NCBI GenBank assembly: GCA_021462845.1
Contig: JAJTXU010000005.1
Location: 1-50,330 of the forward strand
Reading direction: 5' to 3'
From: Anaerolineales bacterium
GTDB lineage: Bacteria > Chloroflexota > Anaerolineae > Anaerolineales > Villigracilaceae
Length of the DNA stretch: 50,330 nucleotides
The translations under genes were made by a program, and so were the position numbers. Positions 3,004 through 50,231 of this stretch are shown here, in pieces. Positions within the stretch are counted from its first letter, which is position 1. Every line of letters begins with the position of its first letter. The notes beneath the pieces are model-generated. The model saw only the letters and a program-made list of their open reading frames with translations. It was not told where the DNA came from and did no database searches.

Positions 3004-3229
3004 TCAATTGCGTGTGAATTTTATCTCAAAGGCGGTTTTTGTCAACGCGGGATCGGTTACCCTGTTCAGGGCTTTCTTAAGGTCGCAGTAAACCACTTCA
3101 TTGGACGCGGATGCCACGGACTTTTCCGTAAAAAACGGAAGAAAATCCGTTTACTCCGTAAAACTTGTGCTGACGGTTCGTCTTTCGCTCACCGTGCCGA
3201 AGTATCCGCGTACGAAAAAGACTTTAAGA

Positions 3230-3316
3230 ACTCACCTTACGCAGAACGTCCCGAAGGTTTCCTTGAAAGTACCTTGTTGCGCCAAACCAACCTTCGGGAC
3301 GGTGCGTAACATCAGT
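3230..3316. repeat. Composite inverted-repeat element
   Basis: Ends ACTCACCTTACGC / GCGTAACATCAGT; internal stem CGTCCCGAAGGTT (3247-3259) / AACCTTCGGGACG (3289-3301). Confidence 0.7.
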
Positions 3317-9392: not shown

Positions 9393-9425
9393 AACCTTGC
9401 GAAGGTTGAGAACCTTCGCAAGGTT
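9393..9425. repeat. CCTTGCGAAGGTT palindromic element, copy 1
   Basis: AACCTTGCGAAGGTT-gag-AACCTTCGCAAGGTT, 15-bp perfect arms. Confidence 0.9.
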
Positions 9426-14962: not shown

Positions 14963-14995
14963 ACCCTTGCGAAGGTTAGGAACCTTCGCAAGGGT
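14963..14995. repeat. CCTTGCGAAGGTT palindromic element, copy 2
   Basis: ACCCTTGCGAAGGTT-agg-AACCTTCGCAAGGGT between two co-directional genes. Confidence 0.9.
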
Positions 14996-17272: not shown

Positions 17273-17305
17273 AAGTGACAGTCACCTTCAAGGTGACTGT
17301 CACTT
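17273..17305. repeat. 16-bp-arm palindrome in the 5' leader of the lipid kinase gene
   Basis: AAGTGACAGTCACCTT-c-AAGGTGACTGTCACTT, perfect. Confidence 0.88.
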
Positions 17306-18245: not shown

Positions 18246-18293
18246 CCAATTACGAATTACAATGTGTGCTAGTAATTGGTAATTCGTAATTGG
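18246..18293. repeat. Hairpin CCAATTACGAATTAC / GTAATTCGTAATTGG
   Basis: 15-bp perfect arms, 3 nt after the upstream stop codon. Confidence 0.8.
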
Positions 18294-18299
18294 CGACAT

Positions 18300-19916
18300 A
18301 TGCCTGATCTAATCCACTCCCTCCTCAACCAAGACATCGGACACCTCCGCATCATCGCGGAAGTATGGGGACTCGAATTGGACTCTACGGATTCAGATTC
18401 AGCGCGGGATGAACTATCCGCCTCTCTCCTCGACTTCAACCTGCTCGCAGACCATCTAGCCTCTCTCCCCCCCAAAGCGGACTCCGCCATCGCCGCCCTC
18501 ATCGCCTCCAACGGACGAATCGCGTGGGCGACATTCGCGCGTCAATTCGGCGACATCCGCGAAATGGGCGCAGGCAAACGCGACAGGGAACATCCGCATC
18601 GGAATCCAATTTCAACCTCGGAGATTCTTTTCTATCGCGGCATACTTGCGCGCGCGTTTTTTGACACCGACAAAGGTTCGCAGGAGTTTGCATACATTCC
18701 TGACGATCTATTATTGTTATTGAGTCGCATGGAGAGGAAAGAGGAAAGAGGAAAGAACTTAGCGAACTTCGCGGGCTTGGCGGTTAATAATTCTGCGCCG
18801 CTCGGTCGCCCCGCATCCCCCGCTGAAAAAGGGAAAGAGATTCTCGCAGACGATTCCATCCTCGACGATGCCACCACCCTGCTTGCCGCGTTGCGCATGG
18901 GTAGGTCAAATTGGCAATTTGACCAACAGCTTGTGGCATTGCTGATCTCTGCGAATCTCATCTCGAATAACACAATCCAAGCCGAGCCTGTAAAAACCTT
19001 CCTCGAATCCTCCCGCACGGACGCATTGAAGATGCTCCACGACTCATGGCTCGCAAGCGACACGTTCAACGAACTCAAACTCATGCCGAGTATCATCTGC
19101 GAAGGGGAATGGAAAAACTTACCGCGAGAGACTCGAAACGCGATACTCGGTTTTATCAACTCTGTCCTTGCGAACAAATGGTGGAGTGTGACCGATTTTA
19201 TCCGCGCCATCAAACAATCACATCCCGACTTCCAACGTCCCGCAGGCGATTACGACTCATGGATCATCAAACGCGCCTCCGATGGCGTATACCTGCGCGG
19301 ATTCGATTCATGGAATGAAGTAGACGGCGCGTTGATCCGATTCTTTATCAACACACTTCATTGGCTAGGGCGGTTGGATTTGAATTTTGTAGAAGGCGCA
19401 ACAGGACCGACTTCTTTCCGTCTTTCTTCTTTCCAAAATGAGAAAGAGGAAAGAGGAAAGATTGGAGTCGCGTCAAACGGAAAGATTTCCATACCACGCG
19501 ATGCTATGCGTGTGGTTCGTTATCAGATCGCGAGGTTTTGTGAATGGGATGAGTCAAAAGGCGATGGATATAAATATCGAGTCACAGCTCAGTCGTTGAA
19601 ACACGCCAAAGAGCAGGGATTGAAAGCCGAGCAACTCTTGTCTCTGCTGGTGAAGCACACCGACAACAAAGTCCCGCCGCCGCTGGTGAAAGCGCTCAAA
19701 CGGTGGGACGCTAATGGCACACAGGCTCGAATGGAAACTCAAACCATCCTACGGGTGAGTCAGCCCGAGGTGTTGGAAGAAGCGCGTAAGTCAAAAGCGG
19801 GAAAATTTTTCGGCGAGATATTAAGTCCGACGGCGGTTGTCGTCAAAAGCGGGGCAATCCAAAAAGTGATGGAAGCGATGATCGAGTTGGGATTGTTTGC
19901 GGACATTGAAGAATAG
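18300..19916 (+). CDS. Helicase-associated (Helicase_C_3/XPB N-terminal-like) domain protein
   Basis: Overall helical domain organisation; C-terminal ILRVSQPEVLEEARKSKAGKFFGEILSPTAVVVKSGAIQKVMEAMIELGLFADIE. Confidence 0.55.
   Translation: MPDLIHSLLNQDIGHLRIIAEVWGLELDSTDSDSARDELSASLLDFNLLADHLASLPPKADSAIAALIASNGRIAWATFARQFGDIREMGAGKRDREHPHRNPISTSEILFYRGILARAFFDTDKGSQEFAYIPDDLLLLLSRMERKEERGKNLANFAGLAVNNSAPLGRPASPAEKGKEILADDSILDDATTLLAALRMGRSNWQFDQQLVALLISANLISNNTIQAEPVKTFLESSRTDALKMLHDSWLASDTFNELKLMPSIICEGEWKNLPRETRNAILGFINSVLANKWWSVTDFIRAIKQSHPDFQRPAGDYDSWIIKRASDGVYLRGFDSWNEVDGALIRFFINTLHWLGRLDLNFVEGATGPTSFRLSSFQNEKEERGKIGVASNGKISIPRDAMRVVRYQIARFCEWDESKGDGYKYRVTAQSLKHAKEQGLKAEQLLSLLVKHTDNKVPPPLVKALKRWDANGTQARMETQTILRVSQPEVLEEARKSKAGKFFGEILSPTAVVVKSGAIQKVMEAMIELGLFADIEE
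18904..18924. repeat. In-ORF palindrome GGTCAAATTGGCAATTTGACC
   Basis: 10-bp perfect arms around central G; same core as 47904-47924. Confidence 0.85.
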
Positions 19917-19949
19917 ATCCTTGCGAAGGTTCAGAACCTTCGCAAGGAT
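19917..19949. repeat. CCTTGCGAAGGTT palindromic element, copy 3
   Basis: ATCCTTGCGAAGGTT-cag-AACCTTCGCAAGGAT immediately after the stop at 19916. Confidence 0.9.
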
Positions 19950-46986: not shown

Positions 46987-47760
46987 TTATTTCTTCTTCG
47001 GCGGCATCTTTGCGGCTTCCACTTCACCGCTATTCAAAAACTTGAACACCCCCACCGCCAGCGCCGACCCCAGCAACGGACCAATAAAGTACACCACATA
47101 AAAGATCCAATTTGCAAGATCAGGATTCTCCAGATCGATGGAGGTTGAAAAGATCGCGGGACCGAACGAACGCGCCGGGTTGAGCGAGGCGCCGCTCATC
47201 GGTCCGCCGGCGAGGATGGCAAACGTCACCGTGAGACCGATCGCCAGGCCGGCAAACGCGCCCGCCTTGCCCGCCACCATTCCATGCAACACCATGTTGA
47301 CGAGGAAGAAGGTCAACACTGCTTCGACCGCCATGGCAATGAACGGCGAAGGGCTGGTCAGCAAACCAATCGTCGCGCCTTCTTGAATGCCGTTCACGCC
47401 GATATTCCCCACAAACAGATTCAGCGACCACGCCGCAATCGCCGCGCCGAGAAATTGTGCCGCCCAGTAATACACCGCATCGCTCCACTTAACCGTGCCA
47501 TTGAGCGCCAAGCCAAACGTGACGGCGGGGTTGAAATGCGCGCCTGAGATGTGACCATACGCGTACACAAACGTTGCGATCACCAGCCCGTGCGCCAGCG
47601 CGACCCCAACCAAACCGCCAAAGCCAGAAACTGCCGCGCCTGCGCCGATGAACACCAACGCGAACGTGCCGATCCATTCAGCCACAAACACCTTTGCATT
47701 GAACATGCTTCCTCCAAAGATTGATTTGAACATAAAACCCCTCGCGGGATGATGAGTCAC
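46987..47760 (-). CDS. glpF: MIP/aquaporin family protein, likely glycerol facilitator
   Basis: [15 protein letters not shown] and [17 protein letters not shown] boxes; adjacent to glpK and glpD. Start may be internal ([11 protein letters not shown]). Confidence 0.92.
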
Positions 47761-48671
47761 GCCCAGTGACGCGCTCCCGCAAGAAACGATCTTCCACTCA
47801 TGGATTTTTTACCGGCAGGCTGAACCTCATCCAGGATGAGAACCCCGCCTCTCGCGCCGACGGCGGGCTGATTCGCCTGCGTCAGCCTCTGCCCCTCCTC
47901 GTAGGACAAATTGGCAATTTGTCCCACATATGCGCGATGAATTTTGAGGACCGCCCCATCAAACTCCATGAACGCGCCGGGCCACGGGTTCAACGCGCGG
48001 ACTTGTCTTTCGAGTTCGTTCACATCGCGAGTGAAGTCGAGCCGCCCTTCCTCTTTTTTCATCATCGGCGCATACGTGGACAGTAGATCGTCTTGCGGCT
48101 CTGGCTGAATTTCACCGGCGATCCAGCGCGGAAGAGTTTCGATCAGCAAGTCGGCGCCGAGGTGAGATAACGTCGAGGTGACTGAACCAGCTGTCCCGTC
48201 GGAAGAGAGGCGCATGGATCGTTTCGTGAGCATCGCGCCGGTGTCGAGTCCCGCGTCCATTTTCATGATGGTCACGCCCGTTTCTTCATCCCCGTGCAAG
48301 ATCGCGGCGTTGATGGGAGCCGCGCCGCGCCATCGCGGAAGCAGAGAGGCGTGGACGTTGAGGCATCCGAAGCGCGGCAAGTCCAGCACATCTTGTTTGA
48401 GGATCTGCCCGAACGCGGCAACGACAATGAGATCGGGCGACCACGCGCGGAGAGTTTCCATCGCTTCGGGCGCGCGCAATTTTTCGGGTTGCATCACGGG
48501 GAGTCCCAACTTGAGCGCGAGCGTTTTGACGGGCGGCATTTTCACTTCGCGCCCACGCCCTGAGGCGCGGTCTGGTTGAGTCACCACGCCCACCACATCG
48601 TACGCGCCAGCCAACACGCGCAGACTCGGCAAGGCAAATTCGGGCGAACCCATAAAAACGACTCTTGTCAT
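47757..48671 (-). CDS. fmt: Methionyl-tRNA formyltransferase
   Basis: TRVVFMGSPEFALPSLRVLAG, VGVVTQPDRASGRGREVKMPPVK, LNVHASLLPRWRGAAPINAAILHGDEETGVTIMKMDAGLDTG. Confidence 0.96.
   Translation of the reverse strand: MTRVVFMGSPEFALPSLRVLAGAYDVVGVVTQPDRASGRGREVKMPPVKTLALKLGLPVMQPEKLRAPEAMETLRAWSPDLIVVAAFGQILKQDVLDLPRFGCLNVHASLLPRWRGAAPINAAILHGDEETGVTIMKMDAGLDTGAMLTKRSMRLSSDGTAGSVTSTLSHLGADLLIETLPRWIAGEIQPEPQDDLLSTYAPMMKKEEGRLDFTRDVNELERQVRALNPWPGAFMEFDGAVLKIHRAYVGQIANLSYEEGQRLTQANQPAVGARGGVLILDEVQPAGKKSMSGRSFLAGARHWA
47904..47924. repeat. In-fmt palindrome GGACAAATTGGCAATTTGTCC
   Basis: 10-bp perfect arms around central G. Confidence 0.85.
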
Positions 48672-50196: not shown

Positions 50197-50231
50197 AAGC
50201 CTTGCGAAGGTTGATAACCTTCGCAAGGCTT
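50197..50231. repeat. CCTTGCGAAGGTT palindromic element, copy 4
   Basis: AAGCCTTGCGAAGGTT-gat-AACCTTCGCAAGGCTT, 16-bp arms. Confidence 0.92.

Follow-up and report, generated by a model that had tools for sequence, protein, structure and literature searches.

A 27-nt palindrome found in genes of Anaerolineales bacteria is very probably a variant GTAG-tagged REP

INTRODUCTION

Repetitive extragenic palindromes (REPs) are usually taken to be intergenic, slowly decaying parasites. The closest described relatives of the repeat reported here are the GTAG-tagged REPs, which are dispersed palindromes of 20-40 nt with a terminal GTAG whose stem bases can be exchanged for other complementary pairs, and which in REPtrons flank a gene for a REP-associated tyrosine transposase (RAYT); some copies are genic, and the GTAG often provides a TAG stop codon (Di Nocera et al. 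2013, PMC3733652). The Chloroflexota case in that study is the GTAG-23 elements of Thermomicrobium roseum, whereas the host here belongs to the Anaerolineales. The TnpA-REP enzymes cleave single-stranded REPs at a CT adjoining the hairpin, with GTAG needed for, and a likely guide to, cleavage; in group 3 the palindrome is perfect (PMC8266576). The Rickettsia palindromic elements (RPEs) are likewise small palindromes lying in frame within conserved genes. RPE-4 and RPE-6 carry a CGTC tag, and no transposase dedicated to CGTC repeats is known (PMC3733652). The 27-nt repeat described below is shorter than RPE-1 and unrelated in sequence to the RPEs. The small dispersed repeats of cyanobacteria are very small, apparently mobile hairpins of 20-odd nt; to our knowledge they have no RAYT link.

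RESULTS AND DISCUSSION

Two palindromes in the window belong to a 27-nt repeat family

The window is a 50,330-nt stretch of DNA from an Anaerolineales bacterium. The original prediction was that two palindromes in unrelated genes, which share a core and differ by a compensated pair in the arms, mark either a hairpin under selection or active hairpin-recognising mobilisation. Re-read from the window, the palindromes are exactly as described, at 18904-18924 (GGTCAAATTGGCAATTTGACC) and 47904-47924 (GGACAAATTGGCAATTTGTCC), and their translations match the peptides given, GRSNWQFDQ(Q) and VGQIANLSY. Both are indeed preceded by GTA, which is part of a longer unit of 27 nt, at 18901-18927 (GTAGGTCAAATTGGCAATTTGACCAAC) and 47901-47927 (GTAGGACAAATTGGCAATTTGTCCCAC), each with 12 of 13 arm pairs. 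The first, on the plus strand, is read as GRSNWQFDQQ and forms residues 209-218 of a 546-aa ORF (18276-19916, plus strand) whose residues 398-508 form a Helicase_C_3 domain (PF13625). The second is read as VGQIANLSY on the minus strand of fmt (47757-48671, minus strand), encoding methionyl-tRNA formyltransferase (Formyl_trans_N and Formyl_trans_C), where it lies in a C-terminal-domain linker of variable length. By its fmt orthologues, the window falls among Anaerolineales metagenome-assembled genomes, near isolates such as H5_CFX6, UTCFX1 and HKUEN02.

The observation on the paired palindromes is correct yet understated: both are copies of one repeat, with the consensus GTAGGACAAATTGNCAATTTGTCCTAC and the layout GTAG-NN-CAANTTG-N-CAANTTG-NN-CTAC. 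The 4.17 Mb genome has 16 occurrences of the core 15-mer and none of a reversed control pattern, and the 27-mer consensus has seven exact copies plus further variants, some of them compensated (e.g. GTAGGGCAAATTGTCAATTTGCCCTAC and ATAGGACAATTTGGCAAATTGTCCTAC). When arm positions are left free, a looser pattern finds 32 places; a covariance model finds about 40, so that the repeat is far more frequent than chance allows and the two window copies are not an isolated coincidence. Extending the scan to relatives in the genus, family and order gave covariance-model matches in 38 of 61 genomes; copy numbers come from the pattern and covariance-model searches, and a genome's count above roughly 100 is a minimum, as the model scores no more than 125-150 candidates per genome.

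The arms covary, as the original prediction implied they should. At the three arm positions left free by the search, 95 of 96 pairs are complementary, whereas no column of 32 exceeds 22-24 in shuffles, and the pairing is lost once partners are slid. Folded as single-stranded DNA, the unit forms a 12-bp stem with a 3-nt GNC loop at -9.8 kcal/mol (mean for shuffles, -1.3). Nearly all copies have GTAG or GTGG at one end; in most the GTAG is paired with CTAC, and in some, such as 18901-18927, the foot of the stem is frayed. No RNA family in Rfam matched the repeat above the gathering score, the window giving only a tRNA. Exact copies were also absent from viral contigs, so there is no sign of carriage by phage.

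Copies of the repeat flank RAYT genes

Contig C296 of the window genome (G000) carries a gene for a Y1/HUH transposase resembling RAYTs, which scores above the cut-off for Y1_Tnp and matches the RAYT profile NF047646 at 2.7e-21 with a score of 76 bits, the cut-off being 80; a relative in G019 reaches 82.9 bits, above that cut-off. Repeat copies lie upstream of the C296 gene at 1745-1771 and 1825-1851 and directly downstream at 2503-2529, where the GTAG of the copy supplies the stop codon of the transposase. The enzyme has NHGH in place of the NHVH of its relatives and may thus be weakened. Flanking copies recur in other genomes, on both sides of the RAYT gene in G004 (contig C346) and G015 and on one side in G016. 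They also lie on both sides in G019, where an IS-like transposase gene intervenes; the flanking type of that genome (GTAGAGCGAGATANTATCTCGCTCTAC) has 16 dispersed copies there. In the sister RAYT clade (C298 and its orthologues, in about a dozen genomes), the gene has directly after it the 26-nt GTAGGACAAACTTAAGTTTGTCTTAC, a relative of the 27-nt unit that agrees with it in the ten outer bases of either arm save for one mismatch.

Ignoring kinship between the genomes, each of the 23 genomes in which the RAYT query detects a member of its clade also carries the repeat, as do 15 of the 38 without one; within the genus, again ignoring kinship, there are 14 to at least 109 matches with the RAYT and 0-10 without it. 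The exceptions are G021, G039 and G056, which are rich in the repeat and in which the RAYT query matches nothing at 1e-10, and of which G021 and G039 have other Y1 transposases. Among the RAYT loci inspected, the link with the repeat is seen only at C296, C298 and their relatives. Alongside the RAYT loci on C341, C318, C23, C343, C201 and C150 there are no palindromes of the 27-nt family, and some of these RAYTs are accompanied by different hairpin families. Hairpins beside other RAYTs have other centres.

Dispersal, covariation, the flanking of RAYT genes and a copy number that tracks the RAYT together suggest that the repeat is best placed among the GTAG-tagged REPs as a new family, and we consider it very probable that it is a non-autonomous variant of these elements copied by a RAYT, an HUH/Y1 single-strand nuclease. 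The 27-nt length, the roughly 40 places, the GTAG end and the alternative stem pairs are as described for GTAG-tagged REPs, and the placing of copies around a RAYT gene of the host genome is as described for REPtrons. In the published elements the GTAG is unpaired and outside the stem, whereas here it pairs in most copies with CTAC in a perfect stem of 12-13 bp, which is why we class the repeat as a variant; about 40% of copies being genic, length-neutral overwriting and exchange at orthologous sites are further differences (PMC3733652). Group 3 TnpA-REP systems also combine a short perfect palindrome and GTAG with a cognate HUH/Y1 nuclease, predicted in our case, although their stems are 5-8 bp (PMC8266576).

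Of the two explanations in the original prediction, active hairpin-recognising mobilisation is thus well supported by a dispersed, covarying repeat flanking RAYT genes, one of them in the window genome. We infer mobility from this distribution; no insertion was caught in action among the genomes compared. The RAYT would recognise the single-stranded hairpin, with its 12-bp stem, GNC loop and GTAG at the foot, would cut at the CT within the far-end CTAC, the complement of GTAG, and would join the cut strand to a new site, probably where the replication fork exposes single-stranded DNA.

Many copies lie in frame within genes

About 17 of the roughly 40 copies are in frame inside genes, with conserved domains or orthologues extending to both sides. 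The hosts are fmt, the helicase-associated ORF, rsmI, a 23S uracil-methyltransferase-like gene, HMG-CoA reductase, a xanthine-dehydrogenase-like gene, an M20 peptidase, a polyprenyl synthase, pheT, mutY, a glyA-gcvT fusion, an FAD/NAD oxidoreductase, a murE-like ligase, a class IV aminotransferase, a choline-kinase-like gene and a methyltransferase with two copies, which are less sure because they follow the recognised domain. On contig C320 of the window genome (locus L191, about 3110-3185), two or three tandem units lie in one methyltransferase ORF and are read as VGRDAIPPYGQDGIPLYGQDGILSY.

On each strand two of the three frames are open (the VGQIANLSY and RTNWQFVL types) and the third contains the TAG of GTAG. 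Genic copies would survive only in an open frame and at positions of the protein that tolerate change. The original prediction held that such palindromes do not reflect protein constraint; this is right as to why the palindrome exists, but survival is filtered by what the protein tolerates. Peptides like VGQIANLSY in the host proteins would then be traces of a mobile element and not protein motifs. A single REP family that has its own RAYT lies in frame in a formyltransferase, a tRNA synthetase, an rRNA methyltransferase, a cell-wall ligase and isoprenoid enzymes.

This distribution bears on the suggestion of a hairpin, in RNA or DNA, selected for a cellular role such as mRNA stability or gyrase or terminator function, with compensatory changes in its arms: strong stem covariation and the precedent of REPs that have gained such roles elsewhere (PMC3733652) speak for it, but with copies that occur in unrelated genes and are found on both strands and in two reading frames, with orthologues that are empty, decayed or carry quite different palindromes, and with no match in Rfam, we regard it as very unlikely.

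Palindromes are exchanged at orthologous sites

Alignment of the Fmt and helicase homologues showed the segment to be absent or replaced in some orthologues. At the fmt site, four close relatives have the same palindrome as the window, HKUEN02 and Bin_53R have a different one of the GCCAAACTTCCAGTTTGGC type, others have longer hairpins, and more distant relatives have just a short linker. The pheT, HMG-CoA reductase, xanthine-dehydrogenase-like and helicase sites are similarly empty or occupied by the same or a different palindrome, and across relatives the orthologues in general lack the repeat or carry a decayed copy or a quite different palindrome. Other in-frame hairpins also occur at these sites: four relatives have long imperfect hairpins of the CAAGTTTCAAGT / ACTTGGAACTTGAAACC type in the xanthine-dehydrogenase-like gene (L285-L288), and the helicase site in G004 (L421) and G010 (L413) holds a large double hairpin of another element family, in G010 CTCTGGAGTCCGACAGCTTGCTGTCGG ... 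CGGAAGCAAGCTTCCGCACTCCAGAG.

The helicase site shows how such exchange differs from gradual change. Between G000 and G011 the flanks are 95% identical over 300 bases whilst the palindrome matches at only 13 of 21 positions (62%), with three base pairs altered on both sides as well as the loop; between G000 and G013 the reverse is seen, the palindrome being identical (21/21) and identity over the nearest 120 flanking bases 78%. The arm pairs do differ in a compensated manner, as first noted, but mostly through replacement of whole elements between genomes and not by slow compensation of a selected hairpin. Wholesale swaps between close genomes are better explained by a copying mechanism than by stepwise compensation. 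They leave no need for a cellular role, the "hairpin under selection" half of the original prediction. We propose two reasons why complementarity stays perfect: mobilisation is limited to hairpins that fold well, and palindromes are replaced as whole units. Codon positions re-used by different palindromes in sister species would then form a natural series for the placing and replacing of REPs by RAYTs.

Simple transposition does not describe every site. The element leaves gene length unchanged in rsmI and the polyprenyl synthase, where it overwrites codons, and both proteins align through it without gaps to solved structures from other bacteria (RRDALKAIEAEPRTLIF of Escherichia coli RsmI against RRKFVGQIANLSYTLIF); simple transposition does not predict these length-neutral sites. 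The genes for Fmt, the uracil methyltransferase, PheT and HMG-CoA reductase are longer by a net 9-18 nt or so, and not by 27. No aligned site gave a clean empty counterpart with a simple 27-nt difference, and insertion with target duplication was seen at none of them. A gain of zero or 9-18 nt suggests either insertion followed by loss of adjacent codons or replacement of resident sequence.

Single-stranded REP DNA, released by a RAYT or otherwise, could anneal to a partly similar coding stretch and replace it, much as in gene conversion or recombineering. The gap-free RsmI and polyprenyl synthase alignments and the net gain of 9-18 nt elsewhere agree with this, as do resident codons that resemble the element (by eye, e.g. 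VERIGN of MutY) and two chimeric sites, namely the helicase site of G002 with one arm of each type and the HMG-CoA reductase of G011 with half an old element and one whole new one. Insertion followed by selected loss of adjacent codons would give the same picture, and we hold overwriting of this kind to be a tentative explanation, less probable than not. Equally tentative is its extension, that Anaerolineales REP hairpins also overwrite partly similar coding stretches with length kept, through a RAYT-linked or single-strand annealing process, and thereby swap 9-residue stretches of conserved enzymes between genomes. In the open-access literature we found no earlier description of what these alignments suggest, the exchange of palindromes at orthologous codons and length-neutral overwriting.

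One-step compensated changes at unchanged length could also arise by template switching (quasi-palindrome correction), in which the fork copies one arm onto the other and so perfects a genic palindrome without a transposase. The choline-kinase-like gene offers a fitting series, from GACGACCAAGATGAACTGCTGGTAAAAGCC in G006 through an imperfect palindrome in G012 to a perfect one in G010. This process cannot, however, yield an identical 27-mer at seven or more unrelated loci or place the repeat beside RAYT genes, and the helicase palindromes of G000 and G011, in which three pairs and the loop changed at once, come close to having neither arm in common. As the origin of the family it is improbable, although it may act on copies after their arrival; RAYT-mediated copying is the reading that we retain.

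Other repeats in the window

A second family in the window consists of nested palindromes, AACCTTGCGAAGGTT-NNN-AACCTTCGCAAGGTT, with four copies (9393-9425, 14963-14995, 19917-19949 and 50197-50231) against 0 expected in shuffles; a relative of this family adjoins a RAYT in G021 (L363). The palindrome AAGTGACAGTCACCTT-C-AAGGTGACTGTCACTT lies at 17273-17305, and three copies of its type surround a gene for a Y1 transposase on C23, a contig of the window genome (L057). On contig C201 of the same genome (3000-10500, L059), a RAYT-like gene sits amid six nested palindromes of the AGACTTCCGAAGTCT type, so that this genome has several RAYT-repeat pairs. Finally, an inverted repeat at 3247-3301, CGTCCCGAAGGTT ... 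AACCTTCGGGACG, has arms that recur in a tight hairpin near a RAYT in G019 (L362).
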